Origin: a virus
Strand: one strand, 5' to 3'
Virus record (IMG/VR): IMGVR_UViG_3300023179_000041
Span: 42,279-106,278 of that record
DNA length: 64,000 nucleotides
The translations under genes and the position numbers were made by a program. The notes under the pieces were generated by a model that was given only the letters and a program-made list of their open reading frames with translations, was not told the DNA's origin and did not search any database. Below, one piece after another: positions 3,431 through 62,378 of this stretch. Position 1 is the first letter of the stretch. The number at the start of each line of letters is the position of its first letter.

Positions 3431-4885
3431 ATGAAGATAGTAATTGTTGGCTCTGGAACATCGGGATTAGTATCGGCAATAATCCTTAGGGGGCTATTCC
3501 CCTTGTGGGATATCACTGTTGTCTCATCAAAAGACATTGGCATTATTGGGGTCGGCGAAGGCTCAACAGAGCATTGGAGACTTTATTTCCAAGACAAATA
3601 TAACATCCCTGTTTCGGAGATGGTCACAGCCTGTCGCGCAACGCACAAATACGGAATCAAATTTGAAAACTGGACAAAACATACGCCAAATTATTTCCAC
3701 AGCGTAAGTGCTGGAGAGTGGGGTCGCGCGTATTTCCCTGCAAATTATGCGTTCTGTTTGGAGAACAACAAACTATTGACCAATTCTATGGTGACTCATC
3801 TTCACGACAATACGATTGTGTTGAACGAAGGCAACCCACATCATGCCGTAAATCAATTTCATTTTGACACTTTCAAACTTAATGAGTATTTGACAAGCGT
3901 CTGCAAGTTGCGAAATGTATCTTTTATCGATGGAAAGGTATCGCGAGTCACAAGAAACTCAGATAATGGTTTCATAGAGTCGATTGACGTGGATTCTTTC
4001 GGCTTGATAAATGGTGATTTTTTTATTGATGCAAGTGGGTTTCGCAGAGTTTTAATAAGTGAACTCGTTGATTCTGATAAAGACTTTGTTTCATATAGAA
4101 AATACGTTCCTTGCGATTCTGCCGCCGTATTCCCAACGCCACGTGACGAGAGTGGCGAAATTCGCCCATACACAAGGGCAAGAGCGATGCCGAATGGTTG
4201 GATGTGGGAAATCCCGACCCAAGACAGACGAGGCAATGGATATGTATTCGCCTCAGATTTTTGTTCAGAAGAGCAAGCAGTTAGAGAGATTTCGGAAGCC
4301 CACGGAAAAGATATAGAACCAGCAAAAATCATAAAGTTTAAGTCTGGATACCATAAAACCGCTTTCGCATTTAATTGTGTTGCTGTGGGCTTGTCCTCGT
4401 CGTTTGTTGAACCGCTGGAAGCAACTGCGATATCAACATCAATTCAACAAGCGCGAATGCTTGCCTCAGTTCTGCCGACGTTTTCTATTGGCTCAACTGC
4501 AACTGTGTCTCAATATAATAAACAGTACGAATCACTGTTGGAAAACATAATCACCATGGTGGCAATGCACTACATTTCCGACAGAGATGATACCGAAATG
4601 TGGAGAGCACAACAAGGTCTTGAGAAGCCGCCCATGCTTGAACACTTGATATCCCTGTGGAAAGAAAGACTTCCAGAAGCATATGATGTCCCAATATTTG
4701 GGTATGAATTATTTCAGAACGCACACTTTTGGCATGTCGCTCAAGGACAAGGTCTATTGAACCCAGATTTGGCAACTATCCAACTTGACGCATTTGCCGT
4801 ACGTAGAGAAGCAGCAAAAAACATTGCAAATCTAAAAAACGCCGCACTTGGGTCAAAAACCGTTAAGCATCATGCGATTTTTTAA
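3431..4885 (+). CDS. flavin-dependent halogenase (tryptophan-halogenase family)
   Basis: 484 aa, full length for the family. It shows the FAD-binding G-S-G-T-S-G near residue 7, G-V-G-E-G-S-T at 40-46, the halogenase signature W257-M-W259-E-I-P262 (WxWxIP), and L-S-S-S-F-V-E-P-L-E at 321-330. The catalytic Lys (K77, in K-F-E-N-W) and the Glu near the Cl/Lys site (E330, in P-L-E-A-T) both appear present when aligned by eye with PrnA-type enzymes. Such enzymes make HOX from FADH2, O2 and halide and pass it down a tunnel to a lysine haloamine. A cyanophage member of the family is known to halogenate small aromatics in vitro. No flavin reductase is encoded nearby, so host FADH2 would be needed. 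Confidence 0.88.
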   Translation: MKIVIVGSGTSGLVSAIILRGLFPLWDITVVSSKDIGIIGVGEGSTEHWRLYFQDKYNIPVSEMVTACRATHKYGIKFENWTKHTPNYFHSVSAGEWGRAYFPANYAFCLENNKLLTNSMVTHLHDNTIVLNEGNPHHAVNQFHFDTFKLNEYLTSVCKLRNVSFIDGKVSRVTRNSDNGFIESIDVDSFGLINGDFFIDASGFRRVLISELVDSDKDFVSYRKYVPCDSAAVFPTPRDESGEIRPYTRARAMPNGWMWEIPTQDRRGNGYVFASDFCSEEQAVREISEAHGKDIEPAKIIKFKSGYHKTAFAFNCVAVGLSSSFVEPLEATAISTSIQQARMLASVLPTFSIGSTATVSQYNKQYESLLENIITMVAMHYISDRDDTEMWRAQQGLEKPPMLEHLISLWKERLPEAYDVPIFGYELFQNAHFWHVAQGQGLLNPDLATIQLDAFAVRREAAKNIANLKNAALGSKTVKHHAIF

Positions 4886-39140: not shown

Positions 39141-39190
39141 AAGAAACGGCACCGGATTAAACCCATCACGGCTGGAACACCATTTTTTGC
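39141..39190 (+). repeat. interspersed 70-bp element, copy 1 (partial)
   Basis: GAAACGGC ... ATTAAACCC, then CCATCACGGCTGG-AACA-CCATTTTTTG. It has the same core and orientation as the copies further right but lacks the CCAAGGG and GGGGCAG ends. Lies between a rightward and a leftward gene. Confidence 0.75.
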
Positions 39191-53726: not shown

Positions 53727-53755
53727 TTGCCAACTGTCTAACAAACTGCTATAAT
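53727..53755 (+). promoter_or_regulatory. class II promoter TTGCCA-17-TATAAT (GTCTAAC spacer)
   Basis: Spacer carries CTGTCTAACA. Leaderless: ATG 53762 is 6 nt after the -10. Confidence 0.88.
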
Positions 53756-57859: not shown

Positions 57860-58132
57860 ATGAGAATAGAAGTAACCCAACTCAACTCAACGGCAGTGAG
57901 AAAACTCACTTACGTTCTGGGTGCTATTGACCCAGCCGAGACAGACGAAAATAACGAACTCACCTATGGTGAACTAGTTATTGAGTACGCCAACGGTAGC
58001 GAGTATGTCTACTACGACGTAATGCTCGGCGTGTTCACTGACCTACTCAATGCGAAGAGCATTGGGCGAGCCGTGAACGAAGACATAAAGCCGACCCACC
58101 GCTACGACAAACTCGCAACGGTAAACGCCTAG
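57860..58132 (+). CDS. KTSC-domain-like protein (1)
   Basis: 90 aa, SD AAGGAG. Y-G-E-L-V-I-E-Y-A-N-G-S-E-Y-V-Y-Y-D-V, then V-F-T-D-L-L-N-A-K-S-I-G-R-A-V-N-E-D-I-K-P, is the KTSC pattern (strand, N-G-x-x-Y-x-Y, S-x-G-x-x-x-N-x-x-I). KTSC domains are small and of unknown role, often beside nucleic-acid enzymes. Paralogue at 59833. Ends T-V-N-A like two other proteins nearby. Confidence 0.72.
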   Translation: MRIEVTQLNSTAVRKLTYVLGAIDPAETDENNELTYGELVIEYANGSEYVYYDVMLGVFTDLLNAKSIGRAVNEDIKPTHRYDKLATVNA

Positions 58133-58240: not shown

Positions 58241-58269
58241 TTGCGAAATCACTAGAAGTGTGATACACT
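58241..58269 (+). promoter_or_regulatory. promoter TTGCGA-17-TGA-TACACT
   Basis: Drives 58307; SD AAGGAG. Confidence 0.9.
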
Positions 58270-58306
58270 TAGAGTGTAAGGTAAACCAACAACAAGGAGA
58301 AACACA

Positions 58307-58528
58307 ATGGGAACATACAGCAACCTGCCCCCGGGCGTCAGCGTCAGCGACCTCCCGGGCTGGCACGACATTACGGCAGAGGTAGAGATTATCTGCCCAA
58401 ACTGCGGCCACCAGTATTGGGAAGAACACGAAATTGACGGGCGTTGCGGATACACAACAGATGTCGAGACCCAGTGCCCAAACTGCCTACGCAGGTGGGA
58501 GCACCCAGTAACCGTGTCGCTTGACTGA
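58307..58528 (+). CDS. zinc-ribbon protein
   Basis: 73 aa. I-I-C-P-N-C-G-H-Q-Y and T-Q-C-P-N-C-L-R-R-W form a classic two-knuckle zinc ribbon around residues 29-65, with an additional Cys in G-R-C-G-Y. Likely nucleic-acid binding. Confidence 0.72.
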   Translation: MGTYSNLPPGVSVSDLPGWHDITAEVEIICPNCGHQYWEEHEIDGRCGYTTDVETQCPNCLRRWEHPVTVSLD

Positions 58529-58539
58529 CCGAGCGCAGT

Positions 58540-58559
58540 GGTGGGGCGCAAGCCCCACC
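58540..58559 (+). terminator. GGTGGGGC-GCAA-GCCCCACC hairpin
   Basis: 8-bp stem, GCAA tetraloop. Also stands at the far end of the minus-strand RNA unit. Confidence 0.78.
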
Positions 58560-58673
58560 CGAACGCGCAGGGGCAGAATCGAACAGGTGTTCGCCCGTGC
58601 GCCAGAGGCCGCGGCGGGCGGCGAGGCACGCGCAGAGGGCGGAGAGCGTCTCCCACCTCTCCCGTCTATTATT
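58560..58673 (-). ncRNA. candidate minus-strand GC-rich RNA (family member 1)
   Basis: Transcribed leftward from the minus promoter at 58674-58702. 5' end GACGGGAGAGGTGGGAGACG folds as GGAGA-(loop)-TCTCC; then very GC-rich sequence up to the shared terminator. No ORF begins after the promoter. Same 5' style as the RNAs at 59600-59694 and 61165-61284. Confidence 0.5.
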
Positions 58674-58702
58674 ATTGTATCACACAGCGAGAGAAAAAAC
58701 AA
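58674..58702 (-). promoter_or_regulatory. minus-strand promoter TTGTTT-17-TGA-TACAAT
   Basis: Divergent from the plus promoter at 58745. Confidence 0.85.
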
Positions 58703-58744
58703 CCTGAGCCGGCAAAAAGTTTCTGAAGTTTCTGCCCGAATAGG

Positions 58745-58773
58745 TTGCGAAGTGTCTAACAATCTGGCATAAT
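58745..58773 (+). promoter_or_regulatory. class II promoter TTGCGA-17-CATAAT (GTCTAAC spacer)
   Basis: Drives 58820. Confidence 0.85.
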
Positions 58774-58780
58774 TGAGTTA

Positions 58781-58802
58781 GTAGGGAAACCGAAGTACCT
58801 AC
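58781..58802 (+). promoter_or_regulatory. 5' leader hairpin with GAAGTA loop, copy 1
   Basis: GTAGG-GAAACCGAAGTA-CCTAC at the predicted mRNA 5' end; related copies at 59795, 60201 and 62351. Confidence 0.65.
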
Positions 58803-58819
58803 GAGAGAGAGGTAATGAA

Positions 58820-59110
58820 GTGAGTTATTACAAACTGCCGAGAGGCGCAAAGCGCACGAGCGAGTGGGCTGAGGTATCCAGCGAGGCTTACCCTACGGGG
58901 TGGGCTTACGACGAGATTACCAAAGTCACCTACGAAGCCGAAGTGACCTACGACGATGGCATAAAGGCAAACGCCGTTATGGTGGAGTTGTACCACAAAG
59001 GCAAGCGTGTCTATCGGCAAGCGTTCTACGGCGAGACAGCCGACAGCGACGCTTGGCGAGAGAGTGGCGACGCCCTCAACAAGTTGGCAATGGCAACGCC
59101 AACCGCATAG
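58820..59110 (+). CDS. hypothetical protein
   Basis: 96 aa from GTG 58820; SD AGAGAGG at 58805-58812. S-Y-Y-K-L-P-R-G-A-K-R-T-S-E-W and V-T-Y-D-D-G-I-K-A-N-A-V-M-V-E-L-Y. Beta-rich. No family. Confidence 0.62.
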   Translation: MSYYKLPRGAKRTSEWAEVSSEAYPTGWAYDEITKVTYEAEVTYDDGIKANAVMVELYHKGKRVYRQAFYGETADSDAWRESGDALNKLAMATPTA

Positions 59111-59119
59111 GTCGTGAGA

Positions 59120-59154
59120 GCACGGCGGGGTTCAACCTCCTTCCCCCGCCGTGC
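59120..59154 (+). terminator. GCACGGCGGGG hairpin terminator with CCTCCTT loop
   Basis: 11-bp perfect stem; loop TTCAACCTCCTTC presents an anti-SD-like sequence, as in 55951-55987. Confidence 0.8.
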
Positions 59155-59212
59155 CAGACCTCTCCCGCCAAAGGCCGGGAATAGGGGCTGACGAAAAAAA
59201 GTTGGGAATGAG

Positions 59213-59241
59213 TTGCGAAGTTATCGAGAGTGTGATACACT
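59213..59241 (+). promoter_or_regulatory. promoter TTGCGA-17-TGA-TACACT
   Basis: Leader hairpin GTAGTGGGGC-AACC-GCACCACTA. Drives 59288. Confidence 0.9.
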
Positions 59242-59287
59242 AATAGTAGTGGGGCAACCGCACCACTAGACCAAGGAAGGAAACACA

Positions 59288-59479
59288 ATGAGTACCCACA
59301 TCTACCACAACCTCAAAGCGGAGGGTGTCGTCGTAGAAATGCGAAACGGCACACTTGTTATCGAAATGCGCGAGGGAGACAAGTGGACTTGGCTGAACAT
59401 TACGGGCGAAATCGTAGAAATCGCTCGCAAGTTGGGCAACCCAACCGTCAAGGCAAAGCCAGAAACGGTAAACGCCTAA
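59288..59479 (+). CDS. hypothetical protein
   Basis: 63 aa: H-I-Y-H-N-L-K-A-E-G-V-V-V-E-M-R-N-G-T-L-V-I-E-M-R, a beta hairpin, then a helix. Ends P-E-T-V-N-A, matching the tail T-V-N-A of 57860 and V-N-A of 59833. Confidence 0.62.
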   Translation: MSTHIYHNLKAEGVVVEMRNGTLVIEMREGDKWTWLNITGEIVEIARKLGNPTVKAKPETVNA

Positions 59480-59541
59480 GAGCGCAAGTGGGCTGAGGGG
59501 GACGAGAAGTGCCCCCTCGGCTCAATGCTCACGGCCGGGAG

Positions 59542-59613
59542 CCCAAGGGAACGCCTAGCGCAAATAAATCCAATTATCAGGAAACACCATATTTTGGGCG
59601 GCCGGGAGCAGGA
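59542..59613 (+). repeat. interspersed 70-bp element, copy 10
   Basis: CCCAAGGGAACGCCTAGCG, CAAATAAATCC, CCAATTATCAGGA-AACA-CCATATTTTGGGC, then GGGAGCAGGA. Confidence 0.85.
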
Positions 59614-59694
59614 GCAGTCTGAGGCGCGCGGGAAAAGACAAGAGGGGGGAGGGCTAGGGCTCTCCCGTGTCGCCTGCCTTGCCCTACTACTATC
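59600..59694 (-). ncRNA. candidate minus-strand RNA (family member 2)
   Basis: Leftward from the promoter at 59695-59723. 5' part TAGTAGGGCAAGGCAGGCGA folds GGGC...GAGCCC; ends near the element. No ORF. Confidence 0.48.
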
Positions 59695-59723
59695 AGTGTA
59701 TCACACTCCGACGGAAAAAGCAA
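59695..59723 (-). promoter_or_regulatory. minus-strand promoter TTGCTT-17-TGA-TACACT
   Basis: Divergent from the plus promoter at 59759. Confidence 0.85.
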
Positions 59724-59758
59724 CCTCAAAAAGAAAAATAAGTTTCTGCCCGAATAGG

Positions 59759-59788
59759 TTGACAAATGTCTAACAGCGTGCCTATAAT
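59759..59788 (+). promoter_or_regulatory. class II promoter TTGACA-18-TATAAT (GTCTAAC spacer)
   Basis: Consensus -35 and -10; probably the strongest of the set. Drives 59833. Confidence 0.9.
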
Positions 59789-59794
59789 GTAGTT

Positions 59795-59816
59795 GTAGGG
59801 AAAAAGAAGTACCTAC
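59795..59816 (+). promoter_or_regulatory. 5' leader hairpin with GAAGTA loop, copy 2
   Basis: GTAGG-GAAAAAGAAGTA-CCTAC. Confidence 0.65.
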
Positions 59817-59832
59817 AGAAAGAGGTAATGAA

Positions 59833-60093
59833 ATGAAAGTCCTTATCGGCGCCGAGACCCCAGAAAGCACGGCTATCGCAAAGTGGCACTATTCCACTGA
59901 AGACGAGGCTGGCACTATGGGCGCTCTCTTTATCACTTTCACGAATGGAAGCGTGTACGGCTACCCCAACTGCCCACTGACTATGGCACTCGCTATGGCA
60001 CAGCAGGCAAGCGTTGGTCGCTACTTCGCCCACACCGTGAAGCCCTACTTTGGCGAGAACTTCGTCAAGGTTGGCGAACAGGTGAACGCCTAA
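59833..60093 (+). CDS. KTSC-domain-like protein (2)
   Basis: 86 aa. M-G-A-L-F-I-T-F-T-N-G-S-V-Y-G-Y-P and A-S-V-G-R-Y-F-A-H-T-V-K-P-Y match the KTSC strand-turn-helix layout and align with 57860. Driven by a near-consensus promoter, so it should be well expressed. SD AGAGG. Confidence 0.7.
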   Translation: MKVLIGAETPESTAIAKWHYSTEDEAGTMGALFITFTNGSVYGYPNCPLTMALAMAQQASVGRYFAHTVKPYFGENFVKVGEQVNA

Positions 60094-60104
60094 GACCCTC
60101 GCTA

Positions 60105-60128
60105 GTGGTGGGGCGCAAGCCCCACCAC
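60105..60128 (+). terminator. GTGGTGGGGC-GCAA-GCCCCACCAC hairpin
   Basis: 10-bp perfect stem, GCAA tetraloop. Confidence 0.85.
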
Positions 60129-60165
60129 AACAGCGAAGCCGCTGGGGCAGAAATCGTAGATGGAG

Positions 60166-60194
60166 TTGCGAAACCGCGATAGATGTGATACAAT
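60166..60194 (+). promoter_or_regulatory. promoter TTGCGA-17-TGA-TACAAT
   Basis: Drives 60238. Confidence 0.9.
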
Positions 60195-60200
60195 AAGAGT

Positions 60201-60222
60201 GTAGGGAAAAAGAAGTACCTAC
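60201..60222 (+). promoter_or_regulatory. 5' leader hairpin with GAAGTA loop, copy 3
   Basis: GTAGG-GAAAAAGAAGTA-CCTAC, here behind a class I promoter. Confidence 0.65.
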
Positions 60223-60237
60223 AAGAGAGAGGTAAAA

Positions 60238-60483
60238 ATGAGACACAAAGGAACAGTGGCAAGCGCCGAAGTGGTGCTGAGCCCAACAATGGAATACGGA
60301 GTACGGACAGAGTGGGCAGTTGCCTTACACTTCCAAAGCCCGACGGGTGACGCCTCGGACTTTATGGTGCGAGAGTTGCCCTGCCTGAACCGTGAACAGG
60401 CAGTGATTATCGCAGACAAGTGGAATAGCGAAGTTTGCCCAGAGTTAGTGGGCAGGTTCGCAGTCTCCGACTTGGTGAACTGA
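60238..60483 (+). CDS. hypothetical protein
   Basis: 81 aa, SD GAGAGG. A-V-A-L-H-F-Q-S-P-T-G-D-A-S-D-F-M-V-R-E-L and N-R-E-Q-A-V-I-I-A-D-K-W-N-S-E-V, alpha/beta. No family. Confidence 0.64.
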   Translation: MRHKGTVASAEVVLSPTMEYGVRTEWAVALHFQSPTGDASDFMVRELPCLNREQAVIIADKWNSEVCPELVGRFAVSDLVN

Positions 60484-60494
60484 AAACGGCGTAA

Positions 60495-60522
60495 GGCTGG
60501 TGGGGCGCTCCCCCCACCAGCC
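60495..60522 (+). terminator. GGCTGGTGGGG hairpin terminator
   Basis: 11-bp perfect stem, 6-nt loop. Confidence 0.85.
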
Positions 60523-60562
60523 GAGCCGCTGGGGCAGAACTCTAAAAATCTTTGCGAAAGAG

Positions 60563-60591
60563 TTGCGAAACCTCGCAGAGTGTGATACACT
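60563..60591 (+). promoter_or_regulatory. promoter TTGCGA-17-TGA-TACACT
   Basis: 6 nt before ATG 60598. Confidence 0.9.
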
Positions 60592-60597
60592 ATTCTT

Positions 60598-60744
60598 ATG
60601 GAGGTAAAGATGAAAAAGCAAAAGAGCAAGCGCAAGGGCTGGAACTCAGCCGATAGGCAAGCGTTCGCCGACGGGCTTCGCACCCGTGCGGTGACTATCC
60701 ACCACAAGCGCAAGCCTGCGCCTGACCGCCGAGAGTGGGACTGA
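60598..60744 (+). CDS. small basic protein, dual start
   Basis: 48 aa from the leaderless ATG 60598: MEVKMKKQKSKRKGWNSADR ... PAPDRREWD. The second ATG (60610) has SD GGAGG formed by codons 2-3 of the longer form. Highly basic, probably nucleic-acid binding. Confidence 0.6.
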   Translation: MEVKMKKQKSKRKGWNSADRQAFADGLRTRAVTIHHKRKPAPDRREWD

Positions 60745-60818
60745 CCCACCCAGGGCGGCGGGCAACCTAGGGCGCGCGGGCGGCGGAGGCCGCGGCGGGC
60801 AAAACTTTGCGCCGCAGG

Positions 60819-60847
60819 TTGCGAAATAGAAGTAGTTGTGATACACT
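60819..60847 (+). promoter_or_regulatory. promoter TTGCGA-17-TGA-TACACT
   Basis: Drives 60895; SD AAAGGAG. Confidence 0.9.
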
Positions 60848-60894
60848 AGAAGTAGTGGGGCAACCGCCTCACACAACACAAAGGAGAAAGAACA

Positions 60895-61137
60895 ATGGAT
60901 ACAATGACCGAGGGTGAGATAGCGCAGCAGAAGGCGAATGAAGTCAAGTTCATTCTGCGCCGACTGATTGACCAAGTAGAGGCAGCCGAAGCGGAGGCAG
61001 CCGACACGCCCCACGACGAAGAAAAGAGCAGCCTCATTCAGGGTGCACTGAGGGTCGTACAGCGACGTTGCAGCAACCTCGCCTACGACATTGTGTACGC
61101 ATACGGAACGCTGCTCAACACGCAAGAAGCAAAGTAG
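60895..61137 (+). CDS. hypothetical helical protein
   Basis: 80 aa, acidic and wholly helical (ANEVKFILRRLIDQVEAAEA, LRVVQRRCSNLAYDIVYAYG). Possibly a small coiled-coil dimer. Unknown. Confidence 0.64.
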   Translation: MDTMTEGEIAQQKANEVKFILRRLIDQVEAAEAEAADTPHDEEKSSLIQGALRVVQRRCSNLAYDIVYAYGTLLNTQEAK

Positions 61138-61144
61138 TCCCGAG

Positions 61145-61164
61145 GGGGGAGGGCGACCTCCCCC
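61145..61164 (+). terminator. GGGGGAGG-GCGA-CCTCCCCC hairpin
   Basis: 8-bp stem, GCGA (GNRA) loop. Confidence 0.78.
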
Positions 61165-61284
61165 ACAAGGGGCGGCCAGGGGCCGCGCGGGGCGCGGCGG
61201 GCAACCCAGGGCGAAGAGGGGCGCGCGGGCTGCCACTTGCCGGAGAGGGGCGCGAGCCGTCTCCTACCCCACCCCTACAATAAT
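61165..61284 (-). ncRNA. candidate minus-strand GC-rich RNA (family member 3)
   Basis: Leftward from 61285-61313. 5' part GTAGGGGTGGGGTAGGAGAC folds GGGG...GCCCC; followed by a very GC-rich tail ending at the shared terminator 61145-61164. No ORF begins after the promoter. Confidence 0.5.
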
Positions 61285-61313
61285 AGTGTATCACAGACTG
61301 ACGCAAAAAGCAA
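61285..61313 (-). promoter_or_regulatory. minus-strand promoter TTGCTT-17-TGA-TACACT
   Basis: Divergent from the plus promoter at 61346. Confidence 0.85.
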
Positions 61314-61345
61314 CCTCAAACAAAAAATAAAAAATGCTCAGGAAG

Positions 61346-61374
61346 TTGCGAAACCTTGCGAAGTGTGATACAGT
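61346..61374 (+). promoter_or_regulatory. promoter TTGCGA-17-TGA-TACAGT
   Basis: Drives 61395 with a short leader (SD GGAGG). Confidence 0.9.
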
Positions 61375-61394: not shown

Positions 61395-61646
61395 ATGAAC
61401 ATCGGACAACTAGCAACGGCACACATTCGCAACGGCGGAACCGCTAAGGCTTCGTCGTGGCGTGCTTATCAGGGCGAGAAGGTACGAGAAATCTACCACT
61501 ACACCACCTTGATGGCGAAGGTCGAAGGCAAGACCCTCACCAAGGTAAGTGAAGGTTGGGGCTCAGTCACCGATAAGCAAGGCTGGCGAAAACTGAGCAA
61601 CGCTGCCCGAAATGCAGGGTTCACCGTGAACGAGTTGCAAAACTAA
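61395..61646 (+). CDS. hypothetical protein
   Basis: 83 aa. H-Y-T-T-L-M-A-K-V-E-G-K-T-L-T-K-V-S-E-G-W-G-S-V-T-D-K-Q-G-W (in two parts), then a helix-turn-helix-like end (RKLSNAARNAGFTVNELQN). Basic. A promoter overlaps its last codons. Confidence 0.65.
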   Translation: MNIGQLATAHIRNGGTAKASSWRAYQGEKVREIYHYTTLMAKVEGKTLTKVSEGWGSVTDKQGWRKLSNAARNAGFTVNELQN

Positions 61647-62350: not shown

Positions 62351-62378
62351 TTAGTGGCGAAAACGAAGTACCCACTAA
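62351..62378 (+). promoter_or_regulatory. 5' leader hairpin with GAAGTA loop, copy 4
   Basis: TTAGTGG-CGAAAACGAAGTAC-CCACTAA. The stem is rebuilt with different bases from copies 1-3 (GTGG/CCAC in place of GTAGG/CCTAC), i.e. covariation. Confidence 0.65.

Follow-up and report, generated by a model that had tools for sequence, protein, structure and literature searches.

The stretch of DNA analysed here (the window) is 64,000 nt long and corresponds to positions 42279-106278 of the 106 kb IMG/VR virus record IMGVR_UViG_3300023179_000041. Its genes include those for a tail tape-measure protein, a ParB-like protein and a helicase. No cultured phage matched the window at the DNA level, and comparison with bacterial genomes yielded no named host, yet an actinobacterial host is likely, because the nearest relatives of the helicase are those of Arthrobacter phages (30-34% identity). 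The close relatives are all uncultured: G001 and G002 (~80% DNA identity in the region discussed here), G003, G008, G009 and G010. The right genome end consists of a series of small rightward genes, many of which carry their own promoter, TTGCGAA-N11-TGTGATACAMT. Within this array, three promoters point against the genes:

58674-58702, minus strand: antisense promoter 1, TTGTTT-17-TACAAT with extended -10; key bases all identical in G001 and G002
59695-59723, minus strand: antisense promoter 2, TTGCTT-17-TACACT with extended -10
61285-61313, minus strand: antisense promoter 3, TTGCTT-17-TACACT with extended -10; kept in G001 and G002

A sequence-only reading of this region had placed three minus-strand copies of one promoter here, each back to back with a plus-strand promoter. 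Its coordinates are exactly right, and so is the pairing, as rightward TTG boxes lie at 58745, 59759 and 61346. The antisense promoters match the TTG-N15-TGTGATACAMT of the rightward-gene array in their -35, 17-nt spacer and extended -10, the latter reading TG-N-TACAMT at all three. The pattern GTTGC-N-TGTGATACA occurs 22 times in the window versus 0 times in 100 shuffles, and two of these matches are on the minus strand, the third minus-strand site reading GTTGT instead. Furthermore, a 69-nt repeat family aligns the three antisense promoters together with the first ~25 nt of the RNA predicted downstream. Judged from their sequence, these are genuine and strong-looking promoters oriented against the genes.

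Such promoters recur in the relatives. We scanned 290 kb from six non-redundant genomes (the window's virus and five relatives, G002 being a near copy of G001) with the pattern TTG-N15-TGTG-N-TAYA-V-T, which yielded 13 antisense and 90 sense matches, where simulated antisense strands yield 0 or 1. Each relative carries one to three antisense promoters. In the three homologous site pairs, all 33 of the 33 compared key promoter bases (11 per pair) are unchanged, against 57 of 75 other positions (p = 0.0013). As 18 of these 75 changed while the key bases did not, the function of the antisense promoters appears to be under selection.

The arrangement of the two promoters is equally regular, with all 13 antisense promoters standing back to back with a rightward one. 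The distance from -35 to -35 is 32-35 bp at 11 of the 13 sites; the two exceptions are site 1 and its homologue in G001, with 42-43 bp, about one helical turn longer. Upstream of the -35 box, the A/T content is 0.78 in antisense promoters and 0.55 in sense promoters, site 1 being the exception with 0.50, and this A/T-rich stretch beside the antisense -35 looks as one would expect of an upstream promoter (UP) element. Moreover, the partner promoters belong mostly (9/13, assigned by eye) to a minority class B, which carries TGTCTAACA between its -35 and -10. Under a strict pattern, 7 of the 32 class B promoters have an antisense neighbour, while just one of the 88 class A promoters does (p = 0.0004). 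At the three sites in the window the parts are as follows:

58703-58744: spacer between the two -35 boxes of site 1; 42 bp, only 50% A/T beside the antisense -35
58745-58773, plus strand: rightward promoter of gene 58820-59110, site 1; class B, TGTCTAACA
59724-59758: A/T-rich, UP-like spacer between the -35 boxes, site 2; 35 bp
59759-59788, plus strand: rightward promoter of gene 59833-60093, site 2; class B, TTGACA-18-TATAAT
61314-61345: A/T-rich, UP-like spacer between the -35 boxes, site 3; 32 bp
61346-61374, plus strand: rightward promoter of gene 61395-61646, site 3; class A, TTGCGAA...TGTGATACAGT

On the plus strand of the window, class B promoters (TTGnnAAnTGTCTAACA..TATAMT, with TGTCTAACA between the boxes) are located at 53727, 54816, 58745, 59759, 62318 and 63605, scattered among those of class A, which suggests that class B answers to a separate regulator. 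Several rightward mRNAs also open with a conserved 5' hairpin (GTAGGGAAAAAGAAGTACCTAC) just before the ribosome-binding site (58781-58802, 59795-59816, 60201-60222 and 62354-62375), and as a group the sense leaders are slightly more stably folded than shuffled sequence (mean z -0.84).

From each antisense promoter we infer leftward transcription, with starts placed 7 nt past the -10, near 58667, 59688 and 61278. At all three sites the leftward path runs into a perfect GC-rich hairpin just 3' of the stop codon of the left gene. As these hairpins are without a U-run, the RNA ends given here are uncertain:

58540-58667, minus strand: predicted antisense RNA 1, ~128 nt, presumed to end at hairpin 58540-58559
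59495-59688, minus strand: predicted antisense RNA 2, ~194 nt, presumed to end at hairpin 59495-59518; includes the reverse complement of a repeat at 59541-59610
61145-61278, minus strand: predicted antisense RNA 3, ~134 nt, presumed to end at hairpin 61145-61164

The shared terminator proposed for these RNAs does not exist as a common sequence, since each RNA would meet the U-less hairpin of its own left gene and similar hairpins follow many rightward genes. Between 56500 and 64000, many small genes terminate in such a U-less, GC-rich hairpin, and AGGGGCAGAA often stands between it and the promoter that comes next. The assertion that no open reading frame (ORF) lies downstream of the antisense promoters does not hold strictly: the ~130-195 nt stretches contain no credible ORF, but a longer antisense ORF of 134 aa (58252-58656) begins within RNA 1 and another of 196 aa (60646-61236) within RNA 3. 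We rejected both as coding sequences: neither has a proper ribosome-binding site, and the 196-aa frame is interrupted by stops in G001.

The genes flanking the three sites are all small:

58307-58528, plus strand: gene left of site 1, 73 aa, with cysteine pairs resembling a zinc ribbon; below Pfam cut-offs
58820-59110, plus strand: divergent gene of site 1, 96 aa; 85-87% identical in G001, where the antisense promoter is kept
59288-59479, plus strand: gene left of site 2, 63 aa
59833-60093, plus strand: divergent gene of site 2, 86 aa, KTSC domain (PF13619, above cut-off)
60895-61137, plus strand: gene left of site 3, 80 aa; 94% identical in G001
61395-61646, plus strand: divergent gene of site 3, 83 aa; 57% identical in G001

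Gaps between genes are longer where they hold an antisense promoter (median 328 versus 172 nt, p = 0.02, from rough gene calls). The array contains two small KTSC-domain proteins (PF13619), at 57860-58132 and 59833-60093, which are probably paralogues.

If the three RNAs formed one small-RNA family opening with a purine-rich hairpin of related style, as had been thought, their bodies should have more in common than they do. Past +25 no sequence likeness is detectable among the three bodies of the window. Over the 13 sites, fold stability shows no excess versus shuffles, with mean z of -0.28, 0.19 and 0.07 at 45, 60 and 130 nt, and none of the window's own three RNAs is clearly more stable than its shuffles. 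Rfam 15 gave no match in the window at gathering score and nothing above chance level at E up to 5. At site 1, the G001 homologue aligns only up to ~10-20 nt past the RNA start; promoter and divergent gene persist there, while the body and upstream gene have been replaced by different sequence. Across genomes the bodies do fall into subgroups, such as site 3 with G001, or those sites that contain the reverse complement of an intergenic repeat. Thus, what the sites have in common is the promoter, with bodies that vary, and neither the single family nor its hairpin is supported.

The intergenic repeat just mentioned is ~75 nt long, with the consensus CCCAAGGGAACGGC..n..AAATAAATCC-n11-GGAACACCATWTTTTGGG(C)..AGGGGCAGAA, a near-invariant core and constant internal spacing. 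This virus has 13 copies, two at the start of the record (L012, 800 and 2064) and eleven in the window, where the GGAACACCAT core is found at 39174, 40094, 42707, 47629, 49618, 51072, 53590, 54707, 57434, 59581 and 62161. All relatives carry several copies each, always in the direction of the genes. No consensus fold emerged on either strand, and the repeat looks like a protein- or RNA-recognition element. RNA 2 crosses the copy at 59541-59610 in antisense, and about half of the antisense promoters likewise face a copy. We considered the repeat as the functional core of the RNAs and rejected this as a general account, given the eleven sense-direction copies in the window, mostly without an antisense promoter, and the missing consensus fold; because most copies lack an antisense promoter, we treat it as a separate feature.

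So what would the leftward promoters do? Our preferred reading, to which we assign a probability of roughly 0.42, is a conserved divergent sigma-70-type promoter unit whose function lies in its leftward transcription and not in a specific RNA, either by insulating or as antisense. Two promoters would stand back to back across a common spacer of ~34 bp, often A/T-rich and UP-like. One would drive a small rightward phage gene, while the other would fire leftward through the non-coding gap and stop at the hairpin after the upstream gene, giving an RNA of 130-195 nt that is antisense to the 3' untranslated end of that gene. Selection would then keep leftward transcription from the site, perhaps along with the first ~25 nt of the RNA, rather than a defined body. 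The most likely local role would be that read-through from the upstream gene is blocked or degraded, through converging polymerases or antisense pairing at the 3' end. In this way the divergent gene, in most cases a class B one (TGTCTAACA), may be expressed on its own schedule, independent of its neighbour. Insulation fits both the class B association and the exchange of neighbours.

Several observations weigh against this proposal. The partner promoter at site 3 is of class A. Homologues of the KTSC gene in G003 and G008 lack an antisense promoter; therefore, this gene can do without the unit. The body of site 3 is kept in G001 and G002 (84%, with two ~26-nt blocks almost identical; four-fold sites of the neighbouring gene, 28/36). 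This body travels with its upstream gene (94%), the divergent gene being just 57% identical, which fits a functional RNA equally well. Lastly, the RNA bodies are C/U-rich, with 2.1 C/U hexamers per 100 nt versus 0.27 in control intergenic DNA, although this motif set was picked after looking at the data. As such, a promoter that always travels with the same divergent gene is not the general rule, as both the KTSC homologues and the site 3 unit demonstrate.

These points could be taken up by a model in which the leftward transcripts are trans-acting small RNAs targeting mRNAs of the phage or its host; the C/U-rich stretches would be their seeds, and site 3 is the best candidate. Such RNAs would be non-coding and driven by strong, UP-like promoters, as is predicted here, and G003 and G008 have in common a third type of body that is also conserved. 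However, when seeds were defined from ribosome-binding regions the enrichment was not upheld, and pairing with Shine-Dalgarno regions, the targets suggested earlier, was no better than composition predicts (p = 0.096 versus shuffles). Together with the lack of excess structure, the unrelated bodies of the window and the unconserved body of site 1, this leaves a trans-acting role rather doubtful. Alternatively, the antisense promoter may tune its divergent partner, through negative supercoiling, polymerase competition or a regulator shared in the A/T-rich spacer, the RNA being a by-product. The near-constant spacing, whose sole exception is longer by about one helical turn (42-43 versus 32-35 bp), would be explained by this, as would the class B association and the retention of the antisense promoter next to the divergent gene despite a change of upstream gene. 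Most class B promoters, however, have no antisense partner, and the spacing could merely reflect two polymerase footprints on one UP tract; we regard such tuning as unlikely. Divergent transcription is common at bacterial promoters (PMC10268837) and the RNA bodies are mostly unconserved, so that the antisense promoters might also be functionless by-products of A/T-rich promoter DNA. This we find improbable, because the promoters are conserved: a complete -35, spacer and extended -10 stand at conserved places, with key bases unchanged between diverged homologues, and recur in six records at fixed spacing in a layout unlike that of symmetry-driven bidirectional promoters.

Phage lambda OOP is a short, leftward non-coding RNA whose promoter is located between two rightward phage genes and which heads to the 3' end of the upstream gene. 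The units described here resemble it in layout only, having a leftward promoter between rightward genes and a non-coding product predicted to end close to where the left gene does. OOP overlaps the coding end of cII, whereas the RNAs predicted here stop at a hairpin past the stop codon; they differ further in their several copies per genome and rigid back-to-back geometry, and no sequence relation was established. For OOP, the references in PMC5869508 point to an RNase III-dependent effect on cII. Symmetry-driven bidirectional bacterial promoters likewise produce an mRNA in one direction and a non-coding antisense RNA in the opposite one, but their starts are separated by 7-25 bp and their -10 elements overlap (PMC10268837), while here two full promoters have -35 boxes 32-43 bp apart and presumed starts ~105-115 bp apart. 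Cluster A mycobacteriophages (L5, D29 and StarStuff) make an abundant non-coding RNA from Pleft at the genome end; it is ~500 nt long and is processed to 100-400 nt (PMC5712189). Like the RNAs predicted here, it is an actinophage non-coding RNA with a strong promoter, no conserved ORF and considerable sequence divergence (PMC5712189), but it is one long RNA, not several short units between small genes that are each paired with a gene promoter. The replication origin of parABS mycobacteriophages is RNA-based, with a single non-coding RNA adjoining parABS (PMC7157519); we rejected an RNA-primed origin here, as the window has three copies and its ParB-like genes (31.9-34.7 kb) are more than 23 kb away.

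Elsewhere in the window, 3431-4885 encodes a tryptophan-halogenase-like protein whose best phage relatives are cyanophage proteins (31-38% identity), and a search for tRNAs found none. Between 56500 and 64000, the order of neighbouring genes varies among the relatives, as if single-gene cassettes had been shuffled.

It is customary to read phage genomes as operons that run one way. It is conceivable, if unlikely, that this phage lineage uses a repeated cassette of fixed geometry, in which leftward non-coding transcription serves as an insulator, so that genes with promoters of a separate class can be shuffled without inheriting the transcription of their neighbours. If the divergent-unit reading is true, conserved counter-gene promoters at a fixed spacing from one promoter class would provide compact, independent control of mosaic, shuffled small genes, and would be a reason not to label each leftward transcript of this kind a small RNA.

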